Shown piece after piece: positions 22,010-56,624 of a DNA stretch of 61,847 nt. Both the position numbers and the translations under genes were made by a program. The DNA comes from a virus: positions 1 through 61,847 of the IMG/VR virus record IMGVR_UViG_3300033153_001680, one strand, 5' to 3'. Every line of letters starts with the position of its first letter. Positions within the stretch are counted from its first letter, which is position 1. The notes beneath the pieces were generated by a model that searched no databases, had not been told where the DNA came from, and worked only from the letters and a program-made list of their open reading frames with translations.

Positions 22010-23102
22010 CTTAGAACTGTTCTACTTAGAGATGTTTAACAGTGCTCGGAGTGACCCCCCTGGTTATGCAGCTTCTCTGGGTATTGATCTAAATGAGGGT
22101 CTCTCAGAGGGGACGTTGTCCTCTGAACCAAGGCAACCTTTAAAGCTTAACAGCGATTTAGTTACCCTAGCCACGGGTCATTCCCAGGACATGCTAGATA
22201 ATGACTTCATGGGCCATGACTCTCCTACAACGGGGTCTACTAGAGACAGATTTGATGCGTCCCCCTACATTTACGCATTGTATGGAGAAAACTTGGCCTT
22301 GGTACCCTCTAGTGCTGTAGTAGACCCGTTCGTTGCGGCACAGTTTATGTTTGAGGGCCTATTCGTAGACGCTGGAGTAGCTGGGAGGGGACACCGGAAA
22401 AATATCGTTACGGGGGGTTTTTCTGAGATAGGGTTTGGTCACCTTATAGGAGAGTGGCAGGGGTACACTGACTCTCATATACTGACTCAGAACTTTGGGC
22501 ACCGCGTGATAGGTACTCGGGGGGTAGTTGGAGTTGTATTTAGCGACTCTAATTCGGGTGGTACTTTTGATATTGGTGAAGGTATGTCCGCTATAGACGT
22601 GGCTTTTATCCAGGGGGGTACCGATAAATACCTAGCTACTACGGATTCCAATGGGTACTTTGAAGCAAATATCCTTCCAGGGCCATACACTGTTGAAGCT
22701 CGCACTCCGAGCCATTATAGCACTTTGGAGATCGACGTACTCCATGAAAATATCAGAGTGCTACTATTTTGGGACGCTGTAGTGACTGAGGCTCCAACGG
22801 GAACTTTTGTCTCGGACGTTGACAAAGTACTAGCAAACGCCGCGAACTCCTCTATACAGTCCCTTAATCCAACTAACGTGGTCCAGGGGCTGAGGGACAC
22901 TTACACAATAACTTGGGCCGTCCAGAATGCCACGTTTGTGAGTTTAGATGGCACTCCTGTGAGTCCTAGTGGCAGTAAAACAATTGGAACTGGTGGCCCC
23001 TCAGATCACATACTAACCGCTTATGGTCCCGCAGGGAGTCTTGAAAAAACTATATCTATAGGTGCAATTATCTTCGTGCCCTTTACTACTGAGGACATCT
23101 AG
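21999..23102 (+). CDS. CAP/SCP-domain protein with Ig-like C-terminus
   Basis: A 367-residue protein, start at the ATG 21999. Residues 5-170 form a CAP domain (SCP-like, bacterial YkwD type): MFNSARSDPPGYAASLG, LATGHSQDMLDNDFMGHDS (His), YGENLAL (Glu), GHRKNIV and HILTQNFGHR are its landmark blocks. A Gly/Asp-rich linker (FSDSNSGGTFDIGEG) resembling a carboxypeptidase-regulatory or SdrD-type fold follows, and the end is Ig-like. CAP proteins in bacteria act outside the cell on surfaces or polymers. In a phage tail operon it may be a virion-associated adhesin or wall-acting factor. Confidence 0.75.
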   Translation: MATDLELFYLEMFNSARSDPPGYAASLGIDLNEGLSEGTLSSEPRQPLKLNSDLVTLATGHSQDMLDNDFMGHDSPTTGSTRDRFDASPYIYALYGENLALVPSSAVVDPFVAAQFMFEGLFVDAGVAGRGHRKNIVTGGFSEIGFGHLIGEWQGYTDSHILTQNFGHRVIGTRGVVGVVFSDSNSGGTFDIGEGMSAIDVAFIQGGTDKYLATTDSNGYFEANILPGPYTVEARTPSHYSTLEIDVLHENIRVLLFWDAVVTEAPTGTFVSDVDKVLANAANSSIQSLNPTNVVQGLRDTYTITWAVQNATFVSLDGTPVSPSGSKTIGTGGPSDHILTAYGPAGSLEKTISIGAIIFVPFTTEDI

Positions 23103-23103
23103 C

Positions 23104-25482
23104 ATGGCAGATGAAAATTTAACGTTATTCGGTGGGCACCCTCTATTTGGCCCTTCAAATATCAGATCCTACGGGGTACTCAAACCTCGGGGTCTTTTTG
23201 TCAGGGTAGCCTTTGTACTAAGGGTATCAGTTCGTTCAAGGGAGTTAGATATACGGTTTCTTGACGGGGACACCAGAAAGACAGACGTATACCGGGCGGA
23301 GGTACTGTTTGGAGTAGACCAGTCAACTCCAAATCCTGGCAACCCTGAAGCGGAGTTTATAGAAGACGTTGTCACTCCCTCTGCGGCTGTTGTAGCCAAA
23401 GGGGACCGAGTAGCCGTTATGGTGGATGGTACAAGGATTTACGTAGTTTCGAGACTCGATACTTTTTTATACCCTAACTCTAACAGAGCAGCTGTGTACC
23501 CAGGGAGAATCCTCGTAGACGCTATGTCTACTTTTTTAGTTGGTGCTATCCTTGACCCAAATGGGGGCTACAGTTATGCAGAGTTCATGGACCCCTCGAC
23601 AGGTGTTCTGACTAGAGTCGAGTCAGAGGACACTGACAAAGTCACTAATCGTATTTCCTACAGGCTGTTCCACCAGTTAGCAGGGTGCCATCTCCAGAAT
23701 CTTAATAGAATACACGTAAACGATGGGGGCCACCCTTACGAAAGAGGTGGGGGAGGTCCTATACCCACTCAGCCTGTCTACCTTGCAGGGACCATACGCC
23801 ACGGAAACACTGTCAACTACTTGCCTTACGTAGTAGACCTCCCCTTTGGGGCCACAGACTACTCTGGGGACTTGTCAGCATACTCGGGTATACAGAGTAA
23901 AGTTGAGGAAGCTTCATGCCACCCTGGTGCAGCTAGTACTTTACGCAATTGGTACAAAGGCGCAACCTATTTATGGTTTGAGGACGAAGAGCCTGAGTGG
24001 GTACTTATGATATCAGTATACCCCTCCTGGGACTTATGTAAGTACATCAAGTTTACAGAAGTGCCTGTACACGGTTGGGCTGAGAACGCTGCTAATGATA
24101 GTGACGACCCCACGTTAGGGGGCGACAGAAGTGACTACGTAGAATACCGGAGATACGAGGACCTTGTAAGGGAGGTACACAGCCTGGAGCGGTGGTGGAT
24201 AGACTGGGGTGTCGCGGGAAGTAGCGTACTATACAGTGAGTCTATGCACCGGGCCTTATGTATACCTGCTATAAAAACAGGGAGGAATGAGTACCAGTTT
24301 GTTGTACATGATGGGTATGGGTACTCTGACGGATCAGAAATCCTCTTTGGATTTAATGAGCAAAAGTTGCTATACGGAAAAGTTGTTAGGACTGTTCGGG
24401 ACGAGGGGCTGGCTTCAAATGGATCGCCCTACGAGTACAGTATTACATACGACGACCCTCTTGGGGCTAATACTAAGGTAGAGTTATGGTACGACCTTGA
24501 CTACAGGTACTACAAAGATGGGTCAAGTACCTGGGAGTCCCAGCATACCACTCCTGAGACTGAAGACAGGGTCTGGGTCATCTACACGGACGGGAGAAAT
24601 AATCTTCTGAAGAAGATATTCATAGACTACTATTGTGACGGCGAGTATGGCTCTTACCCCTGGGACTCCAACTACTGGGACGAAGATGTATCCGAAGTAG
24701 ACGCATATGACAACCAGATGAAGGAGTATATCTACTGGAATAGCACCACCTCCCTGGTTGCCACTTACGATTTTAGATTTCAGTATACAGGTAGTGAGTT
24801 TATCATCAATCAGTCTATACCAGTCTTCCACTATGCGAATATAGAAGAAGGGCTGTTCATCATAGAACTGATAGACATGTACTTGAAAGGCCCCCTGGGT
24901 ATAGGAGGCCCTTTAACTGAAGGCACCAGGAGTCGTACTTTTATTGTCTGGTACCAGGGAACATCTTACACTCTATTTAAAGTGGACATCCCCTACAGGT
25001 TGACACCTCCTGTAGACGAGTTCCCTAACATGTTTAATTTTTGGCCTTGGATCATCGACGTTCTCACCCCCCAGAAGCCAGAAACCCCAACTTATGATGT
25101 GACTCTGTCGGATATAACTATTTCGTATTTGTCCTCGTTTGCGGATTATTATGTTGCGCCTATCGATCCGTACACTTTTTCAGCCGTGTCCTACCCCACG
25201 ATACGAGGGGACGTTTCGTCAGCTCTGTTCGTAGGGTCCTTTAACCCCGAAGTAGAAGACCTGAGTTCTGACTATATCCAGGTTTTCATTGACCCTAACA
25301 GCAAGTCCTGGGGTGTGACTGTTAAGAATATACTTGAGATAAAGGACGACAGGCAAATAACTTTTCCTGATGGCGGGGGGTCCACAGTTGATTGGCCTCA
25401 TGGCATGAACTCTCTTTTTAAAGTTGGCGGAAGCTCTCCGACTTTTAGCAAACCTAGCGCAAGCAGAACTTATTCAATGTAG
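23104..25482 (+). CDS. Large tail protein, 792 residues
   Basis: Starts at the ATG 23104 (MADENLTLFGGHPLFGPSNI) behind GAGGACATC; a longer frame upstream overlaps the CAP gene and lacks a ribosome site. It is Tyr/Asp/Trp-rich with long beta stretches (EWVLMISVYPSWDLCKYIKF; YGSYPWDSNYWDEDVSEVDAY). The composition resembles the 736- and 649-residue proteins, so these three may be diverged tail-surface proteins. No catalytic motif seen. It ends 10 bases before the next start. Confidence 0.5.
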   Translation: MADENLTLFGGHPLFGPSNIRSYGVLKPRGLFVRVAFVLRVSVRSRELDIRFLDGDTRKTDVYRAEVLFGVDQSTPNPGNPEAEFIEDVVTPSAAVVAKGDRVAVMVDGTRIYVVSRLDTFLYPNSNRAAVYPGRILVDAMSTFLVGAILDPNGGYSYAEFMDPSTGVLTRVESEDTDKVTNRISYRLFHQLAGCHLQNLNRIHVNDGGHPYERGGGGPIPTQPVYLAGTIRHGNTVNYLPYVVDLPFGATDYSGDLSAYSGIQSKVEEASCHPGAASTLRNWYKGATYLWFEDEEPEWVLMISVYPSWDLCKYIKFTEVPVHGWAENAANDSDDPTLGGDRSDYVEYRRYEDLVREVHSLERWWIDWGVAGSSVLYSESMHRALCIPAIKTGRNEYQFVVHDGYGYSDGSEILFGFNEQKLLYGKVVRTVRDEGLASNGSPYEYSITYDDPLGANTKVELWYDLDYRYYKDGSSTWESQHTTPETEDRVWVIYTDGRNNLLKKIFIDYYCDGEYGSYPWDSNYWDEDVSEVDAYDNQMKEYIYWNSTTSLVATYDFRFQYTGSEFIINQSIPVFHYANIEEGLFIIELIDMYLKGPLGIGGPLTEGTRSRTFIVWYQGTSYTLFKVDIPYRLTPPVDEFPNMFNFWPWIIDVLTPQKPETPTYDVTLSDITISYLSSFADYYVAPIDPYTFSAVSYPTIRGDVSSALFVGSFNPEVEDLSSDYIQVFIDPNSKSWGVTVKNILEIKDDRQITFPDGGGSTVDWPHGMNSLFKVGGSSPTFSKPSASRTYSM

Positions 25483-28381: not shown

Positions 28382-31300
28382 ATGACCCTCCTACAAGACT
28401 TACTTGATGAAAAAGATCGCAGGGCATCTGCTGAAGCTCCTGTGGAGCAGCCTAAAACTGGCCCCCGTGACTACAGTATACCTAGGGTGGCTGGCGACAG
28501 GTTTAAGACAGGTGTTGCTCAGGGGGTGAAGTCTGTTGGCACCGGAATACAAGCGGTAGGTACTTCGCTACAACACCCTGATACCGTGCTGACTACACAG
28601 GAGTATGTGGAGAAGCACTCTGGTGTCCCCGCTTACGGAGGGTCTCCGAATTTGCAGGCTGCACGTTCTGCGCTCAGGCGGAAATCTCCTACTCGTGAGC
28701 AGTCCCCCCAAGCCCTCAAGAGCCCTTTTCCTGCTTCTGGAGATGGTCCAGTGTCCGTTCTGACTGGAGATCCCCTAGAACCGAAGATCTTCGAGACCCG
28801 GAGACTCCGAAAAGACGAGATGCTGCCAGTGCAGAAGTTTGTGTCTGGGAAAGTAGCTCCTGTAGTAAAGGGACTTGGAGAACCTATAACAGAGTACGCA
28901 GACAAAGTTATAGAAGATAACCCCCAGTGGAGACTGCCCGAACACTTGCGAGGCCGTGGAGTCTTGGAGTCCATGTCCGCTGACGACCTCAGCTTCAGGG
29001 ATAAGGCAACTATGCTAATAGGGGGCATCGCTCAGAACACTCCCCAAGTGGTCGCTTCTATGGGCCTCCCCCTGGCTGGTGGTCTTGTTGCAGGCCCCCC
29101 TGGTCTTGTTGCTGGAGTGGCTGCGAGTGCAGGAGGAAATTTTCTCAACATGAGCGGAGAAGTCTATGAAGAGCTGAAACGAGCCCACCCCCTGATGCCT
29201 GAAGAGGACTTGGCGAATGTTGCTCTCGCTCATGGGACTCTATCTGCTGCACTGGAATTTATACCCCAAGCCTCCTTGATAACTAAAATTCCAGGGTTGA
29301 AAAAGGCTTTTCAACGCGGAGCACTAAAGGAACTTGCGGCTAGACCGTCTTTAGCGAAGGGTTTCGTCTCGGGCATAGCTACTCAGGGAGCTACTGAGGG
29401 GATAACAGAAGCTCTGCAAACAGTATCTGCCAACATAGCGAAACGAGTTTTTGACGAAAACCAGGGGTTGCTGGAAGGCGTTGACGAGGCTACTTTTATG
29501 GGGGTCATCATGGGGTCCCTCACTGGAGGCGTAGTTTCTATGGGGTCCCACCCTTCAGCAGTTCGGCAGTACAACTTGGAGAAGGTAGGAGAGATGAGCG
29601 TGTCTGAGCTGTCCTCCCTGGTTAATGATCCAAGTAAGCTTGCAGAGCAGGGTGTCTCTAGGGCTGAGGCTATTAGTACTCTCCGTCAAGCAAAAGCTAT
29701 TGAGCGGTACGAGAGATCAAAAGGAACACCCCCTAGTGCTCCAAAAGACGAAAAAGCCCTCTTAGAAAAGGATACAAGCGAACGGAAACTGGCTGTACAG
29801 ACTCTAAGAGATGCTAACCTACCCGATTCTCAGTTAGAATCACTGAAGGGTTCCCCTGATCAACTGGAGCAGTACGGCTTAAATCCCCAGGACATAACGA
29901 GTATCCAGGGGGAGCGATCTGATGAGCAGAGCTTTGTTACCAACTTCTCAGCTACTTTAGATTCAGCTCCTAGCGAGGCGATACGAAAGGGAATGTTAAG
30001 CACTCTTCAGGGAGAGTATTACTCTAAGCTGACGGAGCAGGCTGCTGTCCCTGAAGAAGCGGTTGTTTCACCAGAACAGGCTGCTGTCCCTGAAGAAGCG
30101 GTTGTTTCACCAGAACAGGCTGCTGTCCCTGAAGAAGCGGTTGTTTCACCAGAAGAAGCGGTTGTTTCACCAGAACAGGCTGCTGTCCCTGAAGAAGCGG
30201 TTGTTTCACCAGAACAGGCTGCTGCCCCTGAAGAAGCGGTTGTTTCACCAGAACAGGCTGCTGCCCCCAAGAAAATAAAAGTCAACACGTTCAGTAAGGG
30301 CCATGAACAAACGGCAAAAGTCATGGAATCCTGGCTTAAAGAGTTCTCTCCTCGCGAGGGAGTCAGTATTTCAGTAATCTCAAGAGATGATGCGGCTAAA
30401 GGTGAACTTTCTTCTGTATATAAGTCGTTGCCCCCTGAAGTACAGAAAAGGCTTGGAGGCGCGAAGACTAAAAAAGCCCTAAGTAACAAGAGAGTCCGGG
30501 GTCTAATGGCTAAGTTGAAGACAGAAACAGGTGGTAAGCACTATATGATAGTGGCTGACCCGATTCAGCACACTGGATCTGTAAAGGACGTACAGAACGT
30601 ATCAACTTATGCTCATGAAGTAGGACACATTATAGACAAAGAGTACTTGAGGTCCGCGCCAATAAACCTCCAGGCTGAAGTTATTAAGAGTTACAAGGCC
30701 TGGAGAAAAGCGGTTGAACCCTCTTTAGCTAAACGGAGTACCCTGAGAAAAGAGCGAAAAGTATTTGCTCACATATTTGACCGCCCGGATTTGGAAACAC
30801 AGTTCAAGAAAGACTCTAAGGTTCCAACAGGGAAGACTACTGAAGACTACGTTTCCTCATTTGATGAATGGTTTGCCGATCAAGTGGCAAAGTCATTAAC
30901 TACTTCTGAAAAACCTATTGGGGCTATTGAAGAGTTTTTTAAGAACGTGGCTGAATCTCTCAGGTCGATGCTGGAGCGAATCACGGGAACTCAGTTTATG
31001 CCTGACCCTGTAGTAAGGGACTTTGTTCTCGGAGGAGACTTGTTCATCAAGAGGTACTCCGACAACCTTATGGCTCAGGACAAAAACTCCGAGTTTTCAA
31101 GAACGCTACGGGAAAACCTGAAGAACGCTTCAGAAGACTCTGACCTACTAGAGTATGACCCCTCAGACCCCGACGTGAGTGAAATACTACAAGACTTGTT
31201 TCAGAAACCTCCTAACAAAGCTGATGCAGAGGCTACGTACAATCAAGATTTCGCTGATGCACCTGAGTCCTTAGATAAAGCTAATGAGCCAGAGCTTCGC

Positions 31301-34159
31301 AGGCACACTGAAAGACTGGAGAAGGCAAAGATTAAAGAGTACGAAAGGACTAAGAATACCCAGGAGGTGGGTAAAGTAGAGCTTCTGGTGTCATCCCCTG
31401 AGTACTACTTTACGCAGGACTCTACTACACACCTGATACAGAAGATTGCTTCTGATAAAGCAAGTAAAGCCCATATGTGGAGGCACGACGTTCAGGGTGA
31501 CCTCGTGCCTGTTATATCTAGCATAAAGAAGGCGGACCCCCAGGCCTACACAAAAGGGAAGAGATACCTGATAAACTCGGATGTTAAGGGTGAGGGCTTT
31601 ACTACTATGGAAGTTTCAGATGGGTGGCTGGTACTAAACCCTAAAGGCGAAGTAGTATCGAGAACAACAACAGAAAAAGAAGCAGTGTATGGTCCAAAAG
31701 GGTCCATTGAACTAGAGGGTGCGAGGCTTAAAGACTTAGGGTACTCTCCCAACGCTGTAGACTTAGTAAAGGAGTCTAGGCTTCTGACCAACCGAGCCTT
31801 TGACCTGCATATAGAGGACATGCGTCAGCAGGTAAAAGATGCGAAGGATCGGGGGTACAACCCTCCAATGGCTAACACCGAAGAAGGAAAGATCTCCCTG
31901 GCTCAAGCCATAATCCAGATGGGTGACTTGAGGGGGTCATACTTTCCCAGGGTCCGAGAAAACAAGGGATACGTGCTACGTGCTAAAAGCGACAAAGCCT
32001 ACAATGTGCTTGAGACTTTTGAGGCGTATGTCCCAGGAAATGTAAAGGACCCTCAATCCCTTCGGAGAACAAAGCGTTCTTTTAACGCAAAAACTCCGCT
32101 AGGGAAAAGGGTCAGGGAACTCGAATCTCAAGGGTATACTGACATCTCTATCGAGCCTTCTAGGAACCTGTCAAGGCATATATATGATACTCAAGGGCTT
32201 ATAGCATCTATGGATTCCCTGCTAAGTGCAGCAGAGGAGAGTACCAAGTCTACTAGCGACACTGACGCAAAGCTACTAGAGGAAGCTCACGCCAACATTA
32301 CGTACCAAGTCGCGGACCTGTTCAAAATAAAGGGCAACTTGGGAAGCCGAAAGCAGAGAGTCTCAGAGGTTTGGAAGGGATACGAGGAGGACCCCCTGGT
32401 TGCGTTAACAGAGTATTCCCGACGAGTAGCGACTAGTGCAGCAATGCGTGATACTGCTCGAAGAATGCTACTAGTTTTTACTGGCAGGGAGGTGTCTTGG
32501 GAGTCCTTTCAAGAAGAGAACCCTGGTGCAGCTTATAGCGAATACATGAAGAGTGTCCGAGATAAAGCAGTGGACCCGGTACACCAGAAAGAGCTTTATG
32601 GTGCAACTAGGGACTATATGTCTTACATCCTTTCACCAAAGACAGCAGTAGACGCAGCCGTCAGCAAGCTTCAAGCGTTAGCTATTATGAAGTATTTAGG
32701 GTTCCGGGTATCCTCAGCGGCTGCTAACATGACCAACTTAGGTATAGCAGTCCCTGCCACTATATCAGCGCATTCGGGGGTCGGAATTAGGGAGTCATGG
32801 AAAAGAGTACTCAGTGCATCAGGGAAGTACTCCTTGTACAGGCTCAATCAGTTGGAGAACTCTTCGATTATTCCTGAAGCAGTAAAAAAGAAGATCCAGT
32901 CTTCCGCAGACACTGTTCTAACTGAGCAGGACAGGGGGATATTCGACGAGATAAGTAGAAGAGGGTGGGACGAAGAAAACTTCAGTAGGGAAGCCCAAGA
33001 AGTGCTACAGAGTAATACCTCCAGGTATTTTGAAAACACTCTGGAAGTAATGATGTATGCTTTTGGAGCCACTGAAAAAGCGAACAGAGCTGTGACTATC
33101 TTTGCTGCATACAAGGCGCACGAGAAAGCAGCAAAAAAGAATAACAAACCCAGTAATCCTGAATTATTCTATGCGCTGTCTCATCACACTAGCAACCGAG
33201 CACACGGACAGTACGGAGAGGCAGCTAAACCCTGGTTGATCCAGAAACACCGAATTCTCAACCTCCCCTACACCTTTAAAAAGTTCCAGCACAACTTTCT
33301 ACTGAACCTCCATGAAATCGGAGTTAAAGGCTACCAACAGGGGAAAGGGTTTGATGCCGCTAAGAACATTGCATACCTGCTCCTAGCACCTGCCATAGTC
33401 GCGGGTGCAGGGGCATCCCTGGTTTCTCAAGTATCTTTTGGCATGTTGAGTGCGCTCACAGGATCTGACGATGCTGAAGAGGATTTTTATAAGTGGGTGG
33501 ATGATACCTTTGGTGAAGGCGATATGACAAGTCGAGCAGCCAGACATGGGTTGGGGGGTCTGGCGGGGGTAAGCTTGAAAGGTACTCTGGCCTTTGATAA
33601 CCCTCTCCCCGCTAACATCAGTGAACTAGCAGGTGCTGGGGGGAGTGTTGTAACCGACCTCTGGGACTCTGCAATACATGTATCTCAGGGAGAACTCTTG
33701 AGGGGAACTGAGAAAGCCCTCCCCTCTTCGATTGGAGCTTTCTTTAAGGCTTACCGGGAAACTACTGAGGGAGTAACTGATAAAAACTTGTCCCCTAGAT
33801 TCTACGGAACCGAGCCGATAAAAGCAAATTTGAGTGAAGCGATAACCAGGGGGTTTGGGTTTAGCCCCTCCCGTTTAGCTACTATAAGTGAGAAACAGTG
33901 GTCCGAAACTAAAGTGGTTAGAGAGTATGCTAAAGAACGTACCCGCATTAAGAGAAACATCCATAAGATGTTGAGTGCGGACATGAAATCAAAAGAGGCC
34001 TGGGCCAGCGTCCTCCAGGAAGTCAGAGAGTACAACGTTCGAGCTAACGAGGTGTTTGACAGATACCACTTACCCTTCATAAACGATGTTTGGATACGTG
34101 GTGCCATTAGGTCGTACTACACCCCCAGTAAAACAGAACGCTTACGGAGGGTGGAATAG
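28382..34159 (+). CDS. Giant virion protein with metalloprotease-like motif
   Basis: A 1925-residue protein, the largest in the window. A Gly/Ala-rich hydrophobic segment is at about 220-258 (LPLAGGLVAGPPGLVAGVAA). A 13-residue Ala/Val/Pro/Glu repeat follows at about 553-628. HEVGHIIDKE near residue 744 is an HExxH zinc-protease motif, and EWFADQVAKSL further on could supply the third ligand. Long helical regions continue to a second hydrophobic segment near 1660-1690. This is the size and style of multi-domain podoviral ejection proteins that form a conduit or open the envelope. Protease activity is not proven. Confidence 0.75.
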   Translation: MTLLQDLLDEKDRRASAEAPVEQPKTGPRDYSIPRVAGDRFKTGVAQGVKSVGTGIQAVGTSLQHPDTVLTTQEYVEKHSGVPAYGGSPNLQAARSALRRKSPTREQSPQALKSPFPASGDGPVSVLTGDPLEPKIFETRRLRKDEMLPVQKFVSGKVAPVVKGLGEPITEYADKVIEDNPQWRLPEHLRGRGVLESMSADDLSFRDKATMLIGGIAQNTPQVVASMGLPLAGGLVAGPPGLVAGVAASAGGNFLNMSGEVYEELKRAHPLMPEEDLANVALAHGTLSAALEFIPQASLITKIPGLKKAFQRGALKELAARPSLAKGFVSGIATQGATEGITEALQTVSANIAKRVFDENQGLLEGVDEATFMGVIMGSLTGGVVSMGSHPSAVRQYNLEKVGEMSVSELSSLVNDPSKLAEQGVSRAEAISTLRQAKAIERYERSKGTPPSAPKDEKALLEKDTSERKLAVQTLRDANLPDSQLESLKGSPDQLEQYGLNPQDITSIQGERSDEQSFVTNFSATLDSAPSEAIRKGMLSTLQGEYYSKLTEQAAVPEEAVVSPEQAAVPEEAVVSPEQAAVPEEAVVSPEEAVVSPEQAAVPEEAVVSPEQAAAPEEAVVSPEQAAAPKKIKVNTFSKGHEQTAKVMESWLKEFSPREGVSISVISRDDAAKGELSSVYKSLPPEVQKRLGGAKTKKALSNKRVRGLMAKLKTETGGKHYMIVADPIQHTGSVKDVQNVSTYAHEVGHIIDKEYLRSAPINLQAEVIKSYKAWRKAVEPSLAKRSTLRKERKVFAHIFDRPDLETQFKKDSKVPTGKTTEDYVSSFDEWFADQVAKSLTTSEKPIGAIEEFFKNVAESLRSMLERITGTQFMPDPVVRDFVLGGDLFIKRYSDNLMAQDKNSEFSRTLRENLKNASEDSDLLEYDPSDPDVSEILQDLFQKPPNKADAEATYNQDFADAPESLDKANEPELRRHTERLEKAKIKEYERTKNTQEVGKVELLVSSPEYYFTQDSTTHLIQKIASDKASKAHMWRHDVQGDLVPVISSIKKADPQAYTKGKRYLINSDVKGEGFTTMEVSDGWLVLNPKGEVVSRTTTEKEAVYGPKGSIELEGARLKDLGYSPNAVDLVKESRLLTNRAFDLHIEDMRQQVKDAKDRGYNPPMANTEEGKISLAQAIIQMGDLRGSYFPRVRENKGYVLRAKSDKAYNVLETFEAYVPGNVKDPQSLRRTKRSFNAKTPLGKRVRELESQGYTDISIEPSRNLSRHIYDTQGLIASMDSLLSAAEESTKSTSDTDAKLLEEAHANITYQVADLFKIKGNLGSRKQRVSEVWKGYEEDPLVALTEYSRRVATSAAMRDTARRMLLVFTGREVSWESFQEENPGAAYSEYMKSVRDKAVDPVHQKELYGATRDYMSYILSPKTAVDAAVSKLQALAIMKYLGFRVSSAAANMTNLGIAVPATISAHSGVGIRESWKRVLSASGKYSLYRLNQLENSSIIPEAVKKKIQSSADTVLTEQDRGIFDEISRRGWDEENFSREAQEVLQSNTSRYFENTLEVMMYAFGATEKANRAVTIFAAYKAHEKAAKKNNKPSNPELFYALSHHTSNRAHGQYGEAAKPWLIQKHRILNLPYTFKKFQHNFLLNLHEIGVKGYQQGKGFDAAKNIAYLLLAPAIVAGAGASLVSQVSFGMLSALTGSDDAEEDFYKWVDDTFGEGDMTSRAARHGLGGLAGVSLKGTLAFDNPLPANISELAGAGGSVVTDLWDSAIHVSQGELLRGTEKALPSSIGAFFKAYRETTEGVTDKNLSPRFYGTEPIKANLSEAITRGFGFSPSRLATISEKQWSETKVVREYAKERTRIKRNIHKMLSADMKSKEAWASVLQEVREYNVRANEVFDRYHLPFINDVWIRGAIRSYYTPSKTERLRRVE
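30038..30267 (+). repeat. 39-bp tandem repeat inside the giant virion gene
   Basis: About six near-identical 39-bp units encoding 13 residues (AAVPEEAVVSPEQ), with one shorter unit. Sequence identity is nearly complete, so the expansion is recent. It lies just before the protease-like domain and probably acts as a flexible linker. Confidence 0.9.
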
Positions 34160-35782: not shown

Positions 35783-37306
35783 ATGCTCATTGACCACACT
35801 AACTATGACCAGTACTTAAAGCAGTCCACGCAGGGTAGGTCAGGAGTACCTGACGGAAATGTCTTCTTTGACACTGCTACAGACACCATAGAACTTATTG
35901 GAGTGGACGAACTCGCTATATTCGACCACACTTCTATGGGTGGGGGAGCAACCGATCCAAATCAGTTAACAAACTTTGATGGTATCACTCTTAGGGCGTT
36001 ATATCTTTTTGAGAACCAAGAGAGAAGTGCCGACGAGAACCTCCGAAAGCATAAGAGGGGCACCGATGGTGTCTATAAGTTCACGGGGGCGTATAACTTC
36101 GTTAACGGGGTGAAACTCAACAACGCTGGTACCGACAGGCTGAAGATCAGACAGTCCGGTTGGATTGAGTATGCAGCGAACGGGGATGGTCGCACCGAGA
36201 TTGACCGGATTTATCATGGTGTGAACTCCTTGATCGACCTCCAGCCGGCTTCGGCACCGTATTACACCCTGGTTGCAGACACACTTGAAGCAACTCTACA
36301 AGCAGCTACCTGGGCAACATTTGATCGAGCTGGGGACGTGGATGAAGCTATTCAGGTTTTTGGCTCGACTTCTTTCGGTGATACCGGAGCGACTGACTTT
36401 GACTACACCTCTATGATTCTGGTACTGAGGGCCAGAACCTGGGGTTACACGCATGATGAAACCACTTCAGTTTTAAGCCAGATTCCAGAGTTTTCAGGGT
36501 TTAAGGCAGGGTATGGTTTTGGTGACGTAGAGCCCCACGAAGATGCCTACAATTTGGCAGACGTATATGGGGGATCCCAAGTTTCACCCTGGACCGGGAT
36601 GTCCTTAGAAAAACTGGTGGCCCCTCAGACTGAAACAGGGTTCCTCGAAGCGGACGGTGACTTTACCTGGGTACTCCACAACACCGCAGCGGGGTCCGTG
36701 GCAGAGTGCGAAGCGTTTCTTGAAGCTCTCGCCATGCAGGATGGGGACATCGACGATGGTGCAGGGACGTATAGCGGGCATCATGGTAGAGTGTGGATAC
36801 ACCGGAATGACGATGGATTAGTAGAAACTCAGTCTATTGAGGGGGAGGGCTTGTTTATTGAGGGCCTCTCGACCTCAGAGAAACAGAACATCGTTTTCGC
36901 TGATGATGCTGGAGACTTGAAGCATTATCCTTTCTATCCAGAGGTGAAAATCCTAGTTGGGCTATGGGCTAAAGCGGATGCCAATGCTTGGTACCACCTG
37001 TTCTATACAGATGGCGCAGGCGCAGAGGACTTTGATACAGCAACAGCAGTAACGGTGAATGACTCTAGCAGCACCCCAGTGAAAGGACTGTGCAGTACAG
37101 CTGACGCGGAAGGGTACATCAGCTTTCCTTACGACTACGACGCAAACACTCAAGCGGGTCTTCCTGCTGCAACCGATAAAGACGTAGTAGTGGAAGTGGA
37201 GAGCTACGGACCAGGGAGTGTAACCCCTGAGATCACGTTCTTCACTCTAACTCGTTCAAGCATTGTTAATGCAACTTGTTCGCCTACCCTTGACCTGAAC
37301 GTATAG
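35783..37306 (+). CDS. Structural protein, possibly fiber or decoration
   Basis: A 507-residue protein (MLIDHTNYDQYLKQSTQGRSGVPDGNVFFD). It is mixed beta and helix, with several Gly/Asp/Thr-rich loops and a WTGMSLEKL block. Similar proteins next to fiber genes are described in N4-like and related phages as far as I remember, but without a settled role. It is preceded by AGGGGAACCT, created at the previous stop codon, and ends just before a GTG-start gene. Confidence 0.5.
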   Translation: MLIDHTNYDQYLKQSTQGRSGVPDGNVFFDTATDTIELIGVDELAIFDHTSMGGGATDPNQLTNFDGITLRALYLFENQERSADENLRKHKRGTDGVYKFTGAYNFVNGVKLNNAGTDRLKIRQSGWIEYAANGDGRTEIDRIYHGVNSLIDLQPASAPYYTLVADTLEATLQAATWATFDRAGDVDEAIQVFGSTSFGDTGATDFDYTSMILVLRARTWGYTHDETTSVLSQIPEFSGFKAGYGFGDVEPHEDAYNLADVYGGSQVSPWTGMSLEKLVAPQTETGFLEADGDFTWVLHNTAAGSVAECEAFLEALAMQDGDIDDGAGTYSGHHGRVWIHRNDDGLVETQSIEGEGLFIEGLSTSEKQNIVFADDAGDLKHYPFYPEVKILVGLWAKADANAWYHLFYTDGAGAEDFDTATAVTVNDSSSTPVKGLCSTADAEGYISFPYDYDANTQAGLPAATDKDVVVEVESYGPGSVTPEITFFTLTRSSIVNATCSPTLDLNV

Positions 37307-37307
37307 A

Positions 37308-37829
37308 GTGAGCCTTGAGTCCCCCGTCATTGCATACATAGATGGGTCCACCAGACGTATACACCTTAAATGCGGGCTGTATACGTTTGACTGGATCACT
37401 GATATCTATGCGGAGTACAAGTATTTAAGGAGTACCATTGAGTCTCTGCGTAACTGGTACCCTTTTATGCAAGCTCGTGGGGGCGAGTTAAAAGAGAACG
37501 GCGTGTGCAGGAACTGTTATCTAGTGCTGCTCCAAGGCACTCGGGTAGTACCTTGTGATGAGCCCGTTAACCTAACCGCTGTGGGTGAGATCCTCACTGA
37601 CGAAGTGGACGACCAGTACCCTTTTGACTTAACAGGTCTACTGGACCCTCCTACAATCACTCTGTATAACCCGTGTGCTCAAGCAATCCTTAATTGCGTA
37701 ACAAGTGTTGAAGTTATGAAGGAAGATATCGAAATAGAGGTCGAAGAGACTCCCGTTGAAGCTGAACTCGACGACTCAGCACCGGGGGTAGAAGTTATAG
37801 ACAACCAAGTGGACATAGAGGTGAAATGA
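37308..37829 (+). CDS. Hypothetical structural protein
   Basis: A 173-residue protein with a GTG start one base after the previous stop. It opens MSLESPVIAYIDGSTRRIHLKCG and has several Cys (NGVCRNCYLVLLQG, TLYNPCAQAILNCV). The C-terminal 40 residues are highly acidic. It resembles small proteins paired with the 507-residue type in other phages, perhaps a capping or attachment subunit. Its stop overlaps the next ATG. Confidence 0.5.
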   Translation: MSLESPVIAYIDGSTRRIHLKCGLYTFDWITDIYAEYKYLRSTIESLRNWYPFMQARGGELKENGVCRNCYLVLLQGTRVVPCDEPVNLTAVGEILTDEVDDQYPFDLTGLLDPPTITLYNPCAQAILNCVTSVEVMKEDIEIEVEETPVEAELDDSAPGVEVIDNQVDIEVK

Positions 37830-38176
37830 TGTCATCAGAAATACGCATCGTTCGGGGGGACACTGAGCCTCTAGTACTACAGTTTTGGTCGGACCGAAAA
37901 TCAGGTATAAAATATAACCTCTCGGATGTCACTTCTGCGACTCTCACTGTGGACCCCGAGAAAGGACCCGTGGACGCTACCAACAACCTATTCACTTTAG
38001 CCGGGGTTATATCAGACCCCAGCTCAGGGTTAATCTCATTTAGCCCTACAGAAATCCATGTTGACCTGCCTCCCGCGACTTACTACTACGATGTTCAGTT
38101 TATAAAGGTAGGGGGTTTTAAGAAGACTCCCATTATTGATAAATTCGTAGTAACTCAGGATATCAACAAGTCATGA
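37826..38176 (+). CDS. Small beta-domain tail protein
   Basis: A 116-residue protein (IRIVRGDTEPLVLQFW, then NLSDVTSATLTV and TYYYDVQFIKVGG). The RGDT-x6-F opening, Asp-Leu-Thr turn and final Tyr-Tyr-Tyr-Asp-Val strand are the pattern of BppU-like N-terminal baseplate/fiber-attachment domains. It would anchor or decorate a fiber. It overlaps both neighbours by 4 bases. Confidence 0.6.
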   Translation: MMSSEIRIVRGDTEPLVLQFWSDRKSGIKYNLSDVTSATLTVDPEKGPVDATNNLFTLAGVISDPSSGLISFSPTEIHVDLPPATYYYDVQFIKVGGFKKTPIIDKFVVTQDINKS

Positions 38177-38406
38177 GTGCTAGAGACTATAAGAAAGAGT
38201 ACCGAGAGTATCAGGGTCTGTTGAGCCAGAAGAAGAGACGTGCAGGGCGTAACGCTGCTCGACGGATAATGGCGAAACAAGGCCTAGTCAAGAAGGGGGA
38301 CTCTAAGGACGTACACCACAAGGACCATGACCCCCTACATAACGCTCAGAGTAACTTAGCTGCTCTGAGTAAAACTGCTAACCGGGGTAAGCACAGACTC
38401 CGCTAA
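38173..38406 (+). CDS. HNH-like small protein
   Basis: A 77-residue basic protein (MSARDYKKEYREYQGL). DVHHKDHDPLHNAQSNLAALSKTANR is the core of an HNH-like fold: paired His, the Asn-Leu strand and a final helix. Such short HNH-like proteins are common in phages, often near packaging genes, and may assist terminase, but the compact form may lack nuclease activity. It overlaps the previous gene by 4 bases. Confidence 0.7.
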   Translation: MSARDYKKEYREYQGLLSQKKRRAGRNAARRIMAKQGLVKKGDSKDVHHKDHDPLHNAQSNLAALSKTANRGKHRLR

Positions 38407-38420
38407 ACGAGGATGCATGT

Positions 38421-39104
38421 ATGTTTCCAGATGACACTAAGTTAAATTCTTTCTTTGAAGGCCAAGAGGACTTATTCGAGACCTTTCGAAAAGTAGTAGT
38501 GGCGGCTCGGTCTGCCACTGAGTGGGGAACTGTTATAGCTTCCTACTGGATATCGAAATTAGTACTTCCACTAATACCTGGAGGGTGGGCCAAGGATAAC
38601 TTTATTGAGCTGTTCACAGTCACTGTAGGCCTATTGTTCATAGCGTATTTTAAAAGAGCTATGAGGTTTAGAGTTAACCGGTGGGGTGGCAGGATGATAG
38701 TGTGTGGAAACCCCTCTGGTCGTCCTCCTCACTATGAGTACATACTGCGGCGAACCCGGCCTAGATTTCTACTGTTCCCTATAAGCCACTGTGTGGGGGC
38801 CTGGACTTTTACTATTGGTAAGCTGTCCCCCGGTACGGGTGGGGTAAATATTACTGAGAAAACCACGGTGTACATGAAAAACACTGATGAATGCCGGTGG
38901 GAACTGGGGGGATACGGAGCTGAAAAACTGGAGGACGAAGCTAGAGCACTCTTTGTTCGATACTACGAGCACCTGGGTGATAAGGTGGTCGGTGCGATGA
39001 CTCAAGGTGAGAAAGATAAACTCGAAACTATGAAAGCCGCTATTACTTGTGGATTGGACACAGGCTGTACTCCGTATGAGAACTTCTCTCCTACCTCCTC
39101 CTGA
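38421..39104 (+). CDS. Membrane protein at the end of the rightward operon
   Basis: A 227-residue protein with two hydrophobic segments at about 37-54 (VIASYWISKLVLPLIPGGW) and 60-80 (FIELFTVTVGLLFIAYF), followed by a large soluble Cys-containing domain. Gene position at the end of the structural series could suit a lysis or envelope role, but it is longer than typical holins and no lysis motif is visible. The start follows GAGGATGC. The 13-bp hairpin at 39111 lies directly beyond the stop. Confidence 0.5.
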   Translation: MFPDDTKLNSFFEGQEDLFETFRKVVVAARSATEWGTVIASYWISKLVLPLIPGGWAKDNFIELFTVTVGLLFIAYFKRAMRFRVNRWGGRMIVCGNPSGRPPHYEYILRRTRPRFLLFPISHCVGAWTFTIGKLSPGTGGVNITEKTTVYMKNTDECRWELGGYGAEKLEDEARALFVRYYEHLGDKVVGAMTQGEKDKLETMKAAITCGLDTGCTPYENFSPTSS

Positions 39105-39110
39105 TTGTAA

Positions 39111-39138
39111 GACCAGTGGCTCAAGTGAGCCACTGGTC
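39111..39138. terminator. Hairpin between the converging operons
   Basis: GACCAGTGGCTCA and TGAGCCACTGGTC pair perfectly (13 bp) around AG. It lies between the end of the rightward operon (39104) and the end of the leftward one (39150), the expected place for a bidirectional stop. Neither side has a clear T run. Confidence 0.75.
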
Positions 39139-39149
39139 GCCTGCTAGAG

Positions 39150-40727
39150 TTACTCTTCTGTGTATATCACACACTCAGTGGTCAACAGCATCCCTGCTAC
39201 TGATGCTGCGTTAGACACTGCTGCTTTAGTCACTTTAACCGGGTCCACAATTTCGGTGGCACTCACGTCTTCCAGTTCCCCGGTTTGAGCATTGTACACC
39301 GAGTTACCACAGTCCTGAAGAACTCTCTCCACTACGACGGCTCCTTCTACTCCAGAGTTTACTGCTATCTGGCACAGTGGTGCAGACAGAGACCCCTGCA
39401 ATAGCTTATACCCTAAGTGCTCATCAGAAGTTTCCCAGCATAAGCCCCCATGCATTTTAGCTGCACACCCTAGGAGAGCTGTGCCTCCTCCGGGAACCAC
39501 TCCTTCCTCAACGGCTGATCGTGTGGCGTTCAGAGCATCATCCATCCGGTCTTTCAGCTCACCAAGCTCCACCTCGGTCTGAGCCCCCACCTGGATAGAC
39601 ACAACGCCCCCCAGGAGCCTCGCCAGACGCTTTTGCAGCCACTCCCTGTCAACATCCATCGTCGCTTCGCTGAGGGCTTTTCGGATAACCTCAGACCTTT
39701 GAGCAACCTCTTTTTTGCTGCTGCTGTTGTCGTTTGTCAGGGTCATTGAATCTTTGGTCACAACGACTTTACTCACAGACCCAAGAACGCCCCAAGAGAT
39801 ATCTTTAACTCCATCTCAGGCACTGTGGCTCAGTACCCGCCCACCTACTATACTGGACAAATCCCTCAGTACTTCCAGCATCCGTTCCCCGAAATATGGA
39901 GCATTAACCGCCACTGTTTGTACCTTTCCCTGAATCATGTTTACCACCATTCCGGTTATGGCATCACCGTCAACATCCTCAGCGATAACCAGGAGGGGGA
40001 CACCTCCTTCAGACGCATCAGACAGCAGGTCTTGTATGTCCTGAAACCTTGAGATCTTAAAGTCACACATCAGGACTTTAGCATTCTTCAGCTCAGTCAC
40101 CATGTTCTCCCGGTCAGTGGAGAAGTAAGGAGATATGTACCCGTTATCAAAGTGGAGGCCCTTAAAGACTTCTAAGTACGATTTTCCGGTGTGAGAAGTT
40201 CCTACGTTGATGACTCCGTCAGCTCCGGCCTCCTTCATGGCCTCTGCGATCAGCATTCCTGTGGGTATGTCATTGTTCGACGCTATGGAGGCTATTTGCG
40301 CCACCTCTTCAATGCTGGAGACCGGGGATGCCATGTCAGTCAAGAGGTCCAGTACCTCGCTCAGAGCTGCGTCGATGCCCCGTTTCAGCTCAGTGGGGTT
40401 AGCTCCGGCGGTTACCAGCTTTACCCCCTGGTTATAGATCGTGTTAGCCAGAACCGTTGAAGTAGTAGTCCCGTCGCCCACAAGAGCAGAGGTGTTCGAA
40501 GCTGCGCCTCTTAAAACTTTGACTCCCAGGTTCTCTATGGGGTCAGGCAAGTGGACCTCTTTAGCAACCGATACACCATCCTTTGTTATAGTCACCCCTT
40601 GGGCTCTATCCAGGAGAACATTTCTCCCACAGGGTCCCAGGGTCGCTGACACTGCTTTTGTCAGTAGGTTAGCCCCGGCCTTCAGGGACTGGCGAGCTTC
40701 GTTTCCGAATTTGATAGTAGTGTTCAT
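39150..40727 (-). pseudogene. groEL: GroEL-like chaperonin gene with one in-frame TGA
   Basis: One continuous frame of 526 codons from 40727, interrupted once by TGA at 39816-39818. The first part (303 residues) has chaperonin blocks LTKAVSATLGPCGRNVLLD, GDGTTTSTVLAN and AGANPTELKRGIDAA; the second has DALNATRSAVEEGVVPGGG near its middle. Aligned by eye with E. coli GroEL the TGA falls exactly on a Gly without any gap, so a single GGA-to-TGA change explains it. The full product would be a 525-residue folding chamber subunit; the truncated one lacks the rest of the apical domain and the C-terminal equatorial part. No groES-like gene is visible. It could be a real nonsense mutation, a sequencing error or read-through. 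Confidence 0.8.
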
Positions 40728-40734
40728 TGTTTTC

Positions 40735-40875
40735 CTATAGTTCTAGTTTTAGTTCTATTTGGGACACTCGGTCTTCTAATGAGGGCTCATCTTTGGGGTA
40801 TAGCAGATGGACTAACAAGCAGACCACAAGGATTAACATCAGGTTCGTGAGAGTATCTATTATAGCATCTTTCAT
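40735..40875 (-). CDS. Small membrane protein, 46 residues
   Basis: Encoded between groEL and the MazG gene; start at 40875 behind AGGAGTTCTGATT. MKDAIIDTLTNLMLILVVCL leads into one membrane segment (about residues 9-25), and a charged coiled tail (EPSLEDRVSQIELKLEL) follows. The design, one membrane anchor plus a short heptad tail, resembles small phage membrane proteins of lysis or superinfection-exclusion type. The groEL ribosome site overlaps its stop. Confidence 0.6.
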   Translation of the reverse strand: MKDAIIDTLTNLMLILVVCLLVHLLYPKDEPSLEDRVSQIELKLEL

Positions 40876-40877
40876 AA

Positions 40878-41216
40878 TCAGAACTCCTTTCCACCATGCT
40901 TGTATTGGCGAGTGCGGTTATATTCGATTTTAGCTACTATAGCCTGAGCTAAAGGTAGCTGTTTCTGTTCAGCGTAGTCTAAGATCCTTATGACTACATC
41001 TGCCAGTTCCTCTGATACGTGGTCAACTTCTGGCACCTTCACAGACTGAGGGTTCCCGTGTCTCAGAGCTTCGAGGGCCTCTGATAGCTCAGAGTGCATC
41101 AAGGCAATAATGGTTCCGTCTTCTGGTGGGTTCTCCCACCAACCTTTTGAAACTGCTATTGCGTGTACGTACTTCTGGACCTTCGGTAGTACATCTAACA
41201 GTGCTTTTGAATTCAT
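40878..41216 (-). CDS. MazG-like nucleotide pyrophosphohydrolase
   Basis: A 112-residue protein of the all-alpha NTP pyrophosphohydrolase (MazG) type. HSELSEALEALRHG and EELADVVIRILDYAEQ give the two acidic helices (ExxE and ExxD) that bind Mg and cleave NTPs to NMP and diphosphate. Phage MazG proteins are thought to clean unusual or excess nucleotides or alter ppGpp levels; the exact substrate is unknown. It fits the nearby thymidylate genes. It starts 15 bases after another tiny membrane-protein gene. Confidence 0.8.
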   Translation of the reverse strand: MNSKALLDVLPKVQKYVHAIAVSKGWWENPPEDGTIIALMHSELSEALEALRHGNPQSVKVPEVDHVSEELADVVIRILDYAEQKQLPLAQAIVAKIEYNRTRQYKHGGKEF

Positions 41217-41230
41217 TGTTTTCCCCTGGA

Positions 41231-41338
41231 TTATATTAATGAGAGTACCTTACCGACAACAAGCAGCGGGGGCAGAATCCCGATGACGATGTGGAAAGCG
41301 AGATACATAATGACTAAGATATCTACAAGGGGGTTCAT
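41231..41338 (-). CDS. Tiny membrane peptide, 35 residues
   Basis: The ATG at 41338 follows AAGGAAATT and opens MNPLVDILVIMYLAFHIVIG and a second hydrophobic run (LPPLLVVGKVLSLI). It is nearly all hydrophobic, one or two membrane segments. It sits between thyX and MazG. A good ribosome site and stop placement support a gene; function unknown, perhaps related to the peptide at 40735-40875. Confidence 0.5.
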   Translation of the reverse strand: MNPLVDILVIMYLAFHIVIGILPPLLVVGKVLSLI

Positions 41339-41345
41339 AATTTCC

Positions 41346-42290
41346 TTATAGAGTTTGATCGAACACTAAAGGCCACTGAGCCTTGAACTTCTCATGCAGT
41401 GGCACCATAACTTCTCTCATGGACGGGTCGGCGTGTTTAGAACATCTCAGGCTAAACATGTGGTCCCAGACCCCCAGAGGAGCGTTCACCAGAAGCTCAG
41501 TTTTACAGGAGTTCGGCAAGACTGCTCTTGCGACCTGTGGAGCAGCTCCGTCGCCGAGCATCGTCAGGTAGATCTCCTCTGCGGTACTCATCGCTGCCTC
41601 CCAGTCCCTGAAGGAACTCTGGGCTATACCAGAGGGCTCGACAAAAGTGACTTCACCCCCGAACTTACCAGACCCGTAGTTGCAGTACCTTTGTGACTCC
41701 TGTAAAAATGAAGCTGTTCTGTGGCGTACTAGCTGATGTGATGTTGCGCGGTCTACTGTAAACTTGACGAGTGCGTAGACATGTCCTTTGTAGAACTCTG
41801 CTGCACTGACACCTCTTATGCTCTCGGCATAACAGAGAGAGTCCTCCCCCAGTACTCTTGGAAAGCTGGGAGCTGTAGGCTCGGCCAAGTTACTAAAAAC
41901 GTTTGGAGCTAGTTTGTATAAGTGCCGATTTAGGGCATTGACTCCTAGGAACCCTTTACCCCTATTAAACTCAAGAAAAGCCCTTACGTTTCCAGTGAGT
42001 ATCAGCTCATATCCCCCTTCGCTGATGTCGCTTTGAATATACCCACTGGCTAGGATGGGGTACAAAGGCCCAGGATCTCCTCTCATGTCCAAGACCACTG
42101 AAATAACACCCATCTCCAGTACTGAAGTGTGTCCCCTTTTAATGACATTCTTGATAAACTTCTCAGAAGACCCCTCAGTAATTTGGTCTTCGCTCTTGTA
42201 GCATATACGCCCACAGCGTTCTATATGCTGCTCCAGTGAATCTGTTTTACTCGGGGTGATAATCTCTGCGCTTGCTGGTATAATTTTCAC
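41346..42290 (-). CDS. thyX: Flavin-dependent thymidylate synthase
   Basis: A 314-residue ThyX: makes dTMP from dUMP with methylene-tetrahydrofolate and FAD/NADPH. The signature RHRTASFLQESQRY (RHR-x7-S) is at about residue 190, and the C-terminal active-site stretch RAVLPNSCKTELLVNAPL near 258 fits. An Arg-rich block (WDHMFSLRCSKHADPSMREVM) completes the substrate site. Slightly longer than usual (about 220-300). With tmk and MazG it forms a dTMP-supply group beside replication genes. Confidence 0.92.
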   Translation of the reverse strand: MKIIPASAEIITPSKTDSLEQHIERCGRICYKSEDQITEGSSEKFIKNVIKRGHTSVLEMGVISVVLDMRGDPGPLYPILASGYIQSDISEGGYELILTGNVRAFLEFNRGKGFLGVNALNRHLYKLAPNVFSNLAEPTAPSFPRVLGEDSLCYAESIRGVSAAEFYKGHVYALVKFTVDRATSHQLVRHRTASFLQESQRYCNYGSGKFGGEVTFVEPSGIAQSSFRDWEAAMSTAEEIYLTMLGDGAAPQVARAVLPNSCKTELLVNAPLGVWDHMFSLRCSKHADPSMREVMVPLHEKFKAQWPLVFDQTL

Positions 42291-42298
42291 AGCCTACC

Positions 42299-43677
42299 TC
42301 AGTGTTTGTCTTTAAGATACGTTAACAACTCGTTCATTCCTCTGTACTTCCTCTGGATAGCTCGGTACACCTTAGTATCAATAGTGCCCTTCGCCACCAA
42401 GTGATGTACTACTACAGCTTTTCGTTGACCACTTCTATGGAGCCTAGCGTTGAACTGTGCGTACTGCTCATAGCTCCAGGTTAGCCCAAACCACAGCACC
42501 ACGTTAGATCCGTCCTGTAAGTTCACTCCATGAGATATACTCGCAGGGTGGCACAGTAGCAGGGGTATTTTTCCTGCATTCCAGTCCCTTATATGCTTAG
42601 TAGCCTCCTTCTTACTAACTCCACCAGCTATAACAGGAGCATTGGGAAACTTCTTCTGGATCATAGCCAGTTCAAACCGGAACTGAATGGCACAGAGCAC
42701 TCCAGAGCTAGAGGACTCTACTACGCTCTCTAGTGCTTTCAGTTTCTCATCGTGGATTGGTATCACCCTCCTTTTATCTGATGGTAGGTCAGCATCCTCG
42801 TTGTCATATACAGCACCTTGGACGAACTGACGAAGCTTCATTGACAGCGACATGATAGAGAAGGCCTCCACTGAATCGGTGTCACTAAGCTCAGTGAAAA
42901 ACTCTTTCTCAAGCTCCTTATACTGAGCCATTGTCTTTGGGGGTAAGTTAATCTCCACAGTTTCGTACATTATGGGGGGTAGGGACAAGTGGTCCTTTGC
43001 GTCAAGTCGGTACGTTATATCACTTATAGCTTCATAGATCTTCTTATCGCTTCCGTTGCGGATGTCCCAAACAAACCCCCGGTTATCCCTCTGGATAAAG
43101 TATTCGTGCCTGAACTTCGTAATACCTTTCCCGAGCCTCTTTCCTCCGTCCAACACGAAGTACTGAGACCACAGGTCCATCAGAGAGTTGGGGGCGGGAG
43201 TCCCACTTAATATAATCCTCCATTTGGATAGCGCAGGGACCAAGTGTTTCAGGATCTTAAATCTCTTGGTCCCCGGAGCTTTAACCATAGACCCCTCGTC
43301 CAGTATTAGCCCTTGGAAGGGGAGCTTTTTATGTTCCTTATAATACACTTTAAGAGCGTCAAACAACCAGGGGAGGCCCTCAAAATTCACTATGTACAGG
43401 TCCTTTTTAGCCTCCAGAGCCTGTTGCTTATCCTTCCCGTGTAGGACAGAGTACGTTAAGGGTAGATCCCACTTAGCTATTTCATCGGGCCAAGTGGTGT
43501 GGACGGTCATCAGTGGGGCCAACACCAGTATGCCTTTTACCCCCTTGTCTCTGCGCAGCACTTCAGTGGCCCAGGTAAGAGCTATCAAGGTCTTACCCAG
43601 GCCCATATCTACAGCAGAGTACGAAGACGGGTTGTCCAAGTGGAACTGAACTGCTTTTTCTTGGTACTCTCGGAGGC

Positions 43678-43681
<4 letters not shown>
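42299..43681 (-). CDS. SNF2-type DNA helicase/translocase
   Basis: A 460-residue superfamily 2 ATPase. Motif I is DMGLGKT near residue 25, motif II is LDEGS (a variant DExx box) near 128, motif III is ILSGTPAPNS. The C-terminal RecA-like half ends with the arginine finger region, NARLHRSGQRKAVVVHHLVAKGTID. This is the SNF2-like helicase often linked with VRR-NUC and polymerase genes in phages, thought to act in replication or recombination. It overlaps the 3' end of the tmk gene by 4 bases. Confidence 0.9.
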
Positions 43682-44720
<1,039 letters not shown>

Positions 44721-55970: not shown

Positions 55971-56624
55971 TCACTCCCATATGATATGTGCGTAAGGAGC
56001 CTTTTTAACTGCCTCCCTGTAGGTCACCCCTGATCCAGTGATCTTAAGAATATTCAAGGAGTCCATTCGAGGAAGCTCTATTAGACCCTCATTCCCCCGG
56101 ATATCCAAGGATTTAAGATAGTATGAAGGTGCCCCTAGGGAGTTTATAGAACAGCTCATCAGTACGGCCTTAGCACAGTACTCAAGGTTCCCTAGATCTG
56201 CGAAGTCTATCTTGTTACCTGTTAAGTCTACAGAGTGTACTGCTCCGGGGGCTCTTGGTACTGCGGTAATGCCATTGTAAGACAGGTCCACAGTCCAGGG
56301 GGACAGGTTTTCAGGCAAGTCCTCGCCAAACATGCTACAATTACTCGCAATCAAGTGGAGTACGTTAAGATTTGGTATATCAGTCAGGGCCTTGTTTCCG
56401 CTGACGTTCAGCGCATTTAAAGAATACAAGGGCTTCAGACTCTTTAAGCTCTCGTCAGTAAGGAGGTTATCAGACAAATCCAAGTGGTGAATTTTAGGAA
56501 GGTCCTTTAACCAGGGGGGAATCTCCCGCAGACTCATACTGGATAAGTCCACGTACCCGCTGCTTACTAGCTCTAAATTGTTGTACCTTGAGCCAAAATG
56601 CTCACCTAATTTATTTATATTCAT
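55971..56624 (-). CDS. Leucine-rich-repeat protein
   Basis: A 217-residue protein with about eight leucine-rich repeats of 20-24 residues: LPKIHHLDLSDNLLTDESLK, LYSLNALNVSGNKALTDIP, TVDLSYNGITAVP, VHSVDLTGNKIDF, YLKSLDIRGNEGLIELP. The repeat consensus LxxLxLSxNxL predicts a curved solenoid that binds a protein partner. LRR proteins are more usual in bacterial effectors and eukaryotes than in phage replication operons, so acquisition by transfer and a host-targeting role are plausible but unproven. ATG at 56624 behind AACAGGAGAAGTAACC. Confidence 0.8.
   Translation of the reverse strand: MNINKLGEHFGSRYNNLELVSSGYVDLSSMSLREIPPWLKDLPKIHHLDLSDNLLTDESLKSLKPLYSLNALNVSGNKALTDIPNLNVLHLIASNCSMFGEDLPENLSPWTVDLSYNGITAVPRAPGAVHSVDLTGNKIDFADLGNLEYCAKAVLMSCSINSLGAPSYYLKSLDIRGNEGLIELPRMDSLNILKITGSGVTYREAVKKAPYAHIIWE

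Follow-up and report, generated by a model that had tools for sequence, protein, structure and literature searches.

The window analysed here is the whole stretch of 61,847 nucleotides given as IMG/VR virus record IMGVR_UViG_3300033153_001680 (positions 1-61,847), from an environmental phage. The record carries an exact 82-base direct terminal repeat (1-82 = 61766-61847), and because of this repeat the 61.8-kb sequence is probably a complete or circular genome. A groEL gene lies on the minus strand, which the initial annotation had left unstated, running from an ATG at 40727 down to 39150, with 526 codons including the final stop in the translation of the window. A single in-frame TGA is found in it at codon 304 (39818-39816), and two ORFs are called in the same frame, 40727-39816 (303 aa) and 39776-39150 (208 aa, with a GTG start). 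The features of the locus are as follows.

39150..40727, minus strand: frame of a group I chaperonin (GroEL-like) with one interruption (from ORFs, translation, profiles and structure model).
39816..39818, minus strand: in-frame TGA, codon 304 (from translation and homologue alignment).
39819..40727, minus strand: upstream part, 303 sense codons, which we take to hold the opening portions of the equatorial and intermediate domains and most of the apical domain (from ORFs, profiles and model, with domain limits as we assume them).
39150..39815, minus strand: downstream part, 221 sense codons plus the final stop, with the remaining apical, intermediate and equatorial domains (from translation, profiles and codon score).
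39774..39776, minus strand: GTG, codon 318, the first start-like codon past the TGA, a possible but unconvincing re-initiation site.
40733..40736, minus strand: AGGA, likely ribosome-binding site, 5 bases upstream of the groEL start.
39111..39138, no strand: 28-base palindrome (inverted self-match, 93%) between the groEL end and the end of the convergent tail-side operon.

The predicted ribosome duplex at the groEL start has an energy of -4.2 kcal/mol, next to a median of -3.9 over 52 genes. The palindrome at 39111-39138 is perhaps a two-way terminator; it is absent from the terminator listing. A nucleotide-metabolism cluster is located directly upstream of groEL (40878-44169) and encodes a MazG-like protein (below cut-off), ThyX, a helicase and a thymidylate-kinase-like protein; the ThyX has 314 aa and was matched in two stretches. 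The initial annotation had seen no groES partner, and profile PF00166 likewise gave no match in the window while detecting its target in 11 of the 14 control genomes, so that no encoded partner was found for this groEL. Host GroES could serve the phage protein, and other phage GroELs without an adjoining groES exist.

Both halves of the gene score above the PF00118 cut-off of 34.3 bits (117.8 bits upstream and 86.9 bits downstream of the TGA) and their ORFs share one frame, which bears out the initial view of a frame open on both sides. With NF009487, the NCBI GroEL model, the halves match the consecutive positions 1-302 and 311-522; either half alone stays under the full-length cut-off of 352 bits, and the frame with the TGA read through reaches 574.7 bits. 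The read-through frame is also above the cut-offs of NF000592, NF009489 and NF009488, and below that of NF010704 (1041). Since it scores 563.5 bits with TIGR02348, the GroEL equivalog, against a cut-off of 582.1, we file the gene only as a divergent group I chaperonin and not as a certified functional equivalent of GroEL. The motif GDGTTT (84-89) and residues D50, D397 and D495, which we take to serve in ATP binding, are identical in all eight rows of the alignment. The protein aligns over nearly its full length with the listed homologues at 38-46% identity, and the alignment with seven GroELs of the phage collection passes the TGA with no insertion or deletion there. A frameshift was considered as well and is not needed, as the downstream homology continues in the same frame without any indel at the TGA.

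A structure model of the read-through chain was calculated by AlphaFold2 from a 28-row alignment, with the TGA entered as W. Its mean pLDDT is 85.5, and among PDB entries it matches a GroEL chain best, with Z 48.3 over 523 residues, so the chain is predicted to adopt the complete fold of a GroEL subunit. The TGA falls in an unstructured stretch (301-306) of this model and within its least confident ten-residue block (58), presumably inside the apical domain according to the domain limits. With translation ended at the TGA, the 303-residue product would be missing the last part of the apical domain together with one half of both the intermediate and the equatorial domain, and should not assemble. 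The truncated apical-domain product that had been listed among the possibilities is thus disfavoured, as the break lies within that domain itself. Nor would the 208 C-terminal residues beginning at the GTG form a domain.

It is very improbable, in our estimate, that the chaperonin is made in two pieces, one of the first 303 residues and one of the last 208, begun at GTG 39776, which would then assemble. The GTG lies just 14 codons past the TGA and its upstream duplex of -5.3 kcal/mol is slightly better than that of the groEL start. However, it is followed by 19 other in-frame start-like codons, several with stronger duplexes down to -9.3, and the background has a median of -3.0 with a quarter of the sites below -4.9. 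The break also falls inside the apical domain of the model and presumably not at a domain border. A separate C-terminal gene was rejected on similar grounds, since the start after the TGA does not stand out.

A total of 87 homologues were collected, of which 82 are non-redundant. The column of the TGA is Gly in 79 of these 82, with N, T and D once each, as expected from the Gly position that had first been assigned to it; the raw pairwise tblastn alignments have Gly 75 times out of 87, next to five gaps, two each of N and L, and a single T, D and W. Cys was found in none of the 82. A Gly column invites the thought of the Gracilibacteria/SR1 code, in which TGA is read as Gly, and the draft genomes with head-protein relatives of this phage include Desulfobacterota, a group rich in selenoproteins. 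Sense recoding would make the codon selenocysteine, or place it in a host or phage code in which TGA means Gly or Trp.

The use of TGA in the rest of the record speaks against such recoding. It terminates 22 of the 56 other called genes (groEL left out) and 11 of the 24 genes whose 3' end agrees with the ORF end of a relative, in keeping with the early remark that TGA is a normal stop elsewhere. We also scanned 216 sense-frame alignments with relatives (10,932 codons), which cover 32 of the 56 other called genes, the remaining 24 having no homologues. No stop was crossed inside any of the 32 genes. Whole sense-frame alignments were kept, including stretches past the gene ends, and the three crossed stops (14837, 41348 and 52993) are all located at gene borders, one being a gene's own end and two preceding starts. 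As a positive control, the groEL TGA was crossed by all 87 GroEL queries. From the absence of crossed stops, together with this control, we conclude that errors are not widespread in the record and that it is not recoded; neither the stop usage nor the alignments are those of a TGA-recoded phage. ARAGORN found no tRNA gene in the record. The RNA fold around the TGA is unremarkable (z -1.16, with 26 of 200 shuffles as stable) in a test of general folding and not of a SECIS model, and by this fold and the lack of Cys among the homologues nothing of the SECIS type was seen. An alternative code and selenocysteine were therefore rejected on stop usage, relatives' alignments, tRNA genes and folding; general recoding was held unlikely from the beginning, and we now consider any sense recoding of this TGA extremely improbable.

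Several other features of the record were noted. The gene at 21972-23102 in the structural region encodes a CAP/SCP-like domain with weak SdrD_B and carboxypeptidase-regulatory-like repeats. This gene and its neighbour at 23062-25482 are spanned by one relative ORF in the related contig G001; the boundary at 23100-23106 reads TAG, one base, ATG, and because this is an ordinary gene boundary with the relative being fused, it was not scored as a lesion here. A single ORF of 1925 codons occupies 28382-34159 in the late operon, and a leucine-rich-repeat protein is encoded at 55971-56624 amid replication genes.

Conservation was compared on the two sides of the TGA. At columns conserved to at least 95%, groEL keeps 45 of 51 before the TGA and 34 of 39 after it; the counts are 61 of 79 and 40 of 55 at 90%, 33 of 34 and 25 of 28 at 98%, and 26 of 27 and 19 of 21 at 100%. 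The downstream half is thus slightly lower at 90, 98 and 100%, in small numbers that would fit either decay or chance. Mean identity to the 87 homologues is 43.5% before the TGA and 40.5% after it. The codon-usage scores, trained on 18 other genes, are 0.195 and 0.190, each half scoring above its five other frames, and the synonymous scores of 0.065 and 0.046 are inside the range of the 18 other phage genes.

The gene is also highly diverged. In a quick tree of 92 chaperonin rows, which took in the added L184-L187 and left out the partial L188, groEL has the longest end branch (1.3 changes per column against a median of 0.23) and no supported sister, the position of so long a row being unsure. 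The frame is otherwise open throughout this branch, and for this reason the TGA is most simply recent. At the 95% columns, groEL keeps 88% before and 87% after the TGA, against a leave-one-out mean of about 98%. As this puts it among the most divergent rows at conserved columns, some relaxation prior to the TGA is possible.

The initial annotation had described both halves as still under selection. The conservation on both sides supports this for the past only, because a copy drifting freely for up to about 1.5-8% could look alike. By our calculation 2.5% of the substitutions in groEL create a stop, and a copy free to drift would with 95% probability have acquired a further lesion by the time it reached 1.5-8% neutral divergence, a rough bound that assumes 0-0.1 indels per substitution and is void if read-through maintained selection.

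Similar conservation on both sides would also be expected from long-standing read-through. In such a case the TGA would be decoded rarely, probably as Trp through a near-cognate tRNA-Trp, yielding small amounts of the full-length chaperonin, and act as a throttle on expression. The near equality of downstream and upstream conservation agrees with this, as does the residue itself, which sits in a loop and is not strictly fixed (N, T or D in 3 of 82). The suppressed read-through put forward at first retains some room on these grounds, yet the site itself offers no sign of it: the base that follows is G, a context shared with eight of the 22 called genes that end in TGA elsewhere in the record, the structure around the TGA is within chance, and a phage tRNA gene was not found. 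In addition, none of the 87 homologue alignments, a set biased towards the best matches, holds an in-frame stop, and a chaperonin is required in quantity. UGA read-through is reported in PMC9481147 at about 12% in E. coli and 0.04-0.08% in two Pseudomonas species. PMC7918605 describes bacterial genes that are under purifying selection in spite of an in-frame stop, and also presents most such events as short-lived. Taken together, we regard leaky read-through as quite unlikely. Should the TGA be real and kept, leaky UGA decoding would throttle a chaperonin that has no groES of its own, and the amount of protein would report the level of UGA read-through in the host; this is a long shot.

A nonsense mutation of recent date and an error in the consensus are the simplest explanations of the stop; both had been among the options named at the outset and are the ones now favoured. 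With moderate confidence we prefer the first, by which a phage groEL once functional and under selection gained a nonsense substitution very recently. This preference comes from the single lesion in 526 codons, with no indel at it and with downstream homology in the same frame; from the similar conservation, identity and codon scores on both sides; and from the complete GroEL model with the TGA in an unstructured, low-confidence stretch. Under a recent nonsense substitution, purifying selection would have preserved the whole length of a functional, much diverged group I chaperonin in the phage until very recently. One codon of an apical loop would then have become TGA, for which a single substitution is the simplest account, and translation would end at residue 303. 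Because a subunit needs both halves of the equatorial and intermediate domains, the truncated product would be non-functional, and the phage would then depend on the host chaperonin, with the TGA allele as a transient loss-of-function variant. The intact protein would act in the manner of GroEL with host GroES, or without a lid as described for phage EL.

A consensus or sequencing error, with a sense codon in the population and an intact gene, is less probable than not and yet has to be taken seriously. Just one codon is hit in an otherwise open frame, and the virus record is known here from its consensus alone. As no close copy was found in viral_contigs to support the base, the lesion may not exist. 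Errors that happen to create a stop are rare, however, in line with the small share of stop-making substitutions calculated above. The lack of crossed stops in the 32 other genes speaks for a good consensus, and says nothing on the TGA base itself.

Close relatives were sought in two collections. In viral_contigs, a protein search by six exact 8-residue patterns, which could miss a moderately diverged copy, gave seven stretches, none of them a relative; a search with the 8-row alignment gave at least 594 relatives among 600 stretches, and a degenerate DNA pattern across the TGA with the first stop base open had no match. In the phage collection, groEL had no match at the DNA level and 279 records with protein matches. 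The relatives available for a test of functional read-through were all at most 46% identical (best 80 of the viral_contigs relatives) or below 60% (phage collection). The sole DNA-level similarity of the region 36000-43000 to the phage collection is at 38228-38322, about 95 bases in an HNH-like gene with 74-75% identity to Klebsiella phage Klyazma and Salinivibrio phage CW02. One record named as a phage, CAKLQH020000021.1 ('Acinetobacter phage MD-2021a', L050), contains groS-groL amid genes usual for a chromosome, dgkA among them, and appears to be a bacterial contig.

By head protein the nearest phage (L037, on contig G001) is 87% identical and is represented by a 23.7-kb piece of the structural region; queries with the polymerase and ThyX found nothing. 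GroEL was searched for in 16 of the 43 records related by head protein or helicase (all nine from the head protein and seven of the 34 from the helicase) with no match, in a search run without its own positive control, several of the records being short. Two more, L182 and L183, had no match either, with the known GroEL holder L069 positive as control. GroEL was thus found in none of 18 related virus records, several of them short. Possibly the phage acquired the gene as an accessory, although absence from such fragments shows little.

Head-protein relatives were also found at 42 loci in bacterial assemblies, first in Syntrophobacterales and Desulfobacterales drafts (57-60% identity) and, after these Desulfobacterota drafts, in many Burkholderiales and others. 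A host in the Desulfobacterota is our guess from these matches. Of six bacterial assemblies with such relatives, a GroEL was matched in five (one of them partially) at 40-44% identity, and no internal stop was seen in these five.

If the stop is real, a phage has been caught losing or throttling a chaperonin whose frame survived a long divergence. If it is an error, the record holds a phage GroEL of a new, deep-branching lineage, in a phage of medium size with no groES. Neither reading alters a general concept. A narrow search of the literature on bacteriophage GroEL with an in-frame stop codon brought up no precedent, judged by the listings of the papers. A likeness exists with the genes of PMC7918605, which share a single stop in an otherwise conserved gene; those cases are based on related genomes and dN/dS, whereas no close relative was found for the present one.

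GroEL genes are known from other viruses, among them 36 marine genomes of one Bacteroidetes-phage group and 20 genomes of archaeal-virus clades, as reported in PMC5332604. With phage and bacterial GroELs (NF009487 and PF00118; Bacteroides phage DAC16, Flavobacterium phage immuto_3-5A) the window gene shares the near full-length alignment, the fold and the residues of the ATP site; it differs from them in its end branch, the longest of 92, and in its in-frame TGA. The immuto phage has groES beside groEL, whereas none was found in the window. The chaperonins of phages EL and AR9 have been studied structurally, and that of EL, an evolutionarily distant GroEL homologue, is reported not to interact with E. 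coli GroES (PMC7185714 and PMC9598537). The likeness to EL and AR9 is that of a phage-encoded chaperonin, and in the window it has no groES of its own. As far as descriptions alone allow a comparison, EL and AR9 are giant phages (PMC9598537) and the window gene belongs to a 62-kb genome, and the identity of the window protein to bacterial GroEL is about 44%, whereas EL is described as a distant homologue. Phage GroELs are already known, and what is new here is a divergent lineage with one apparent lesion.
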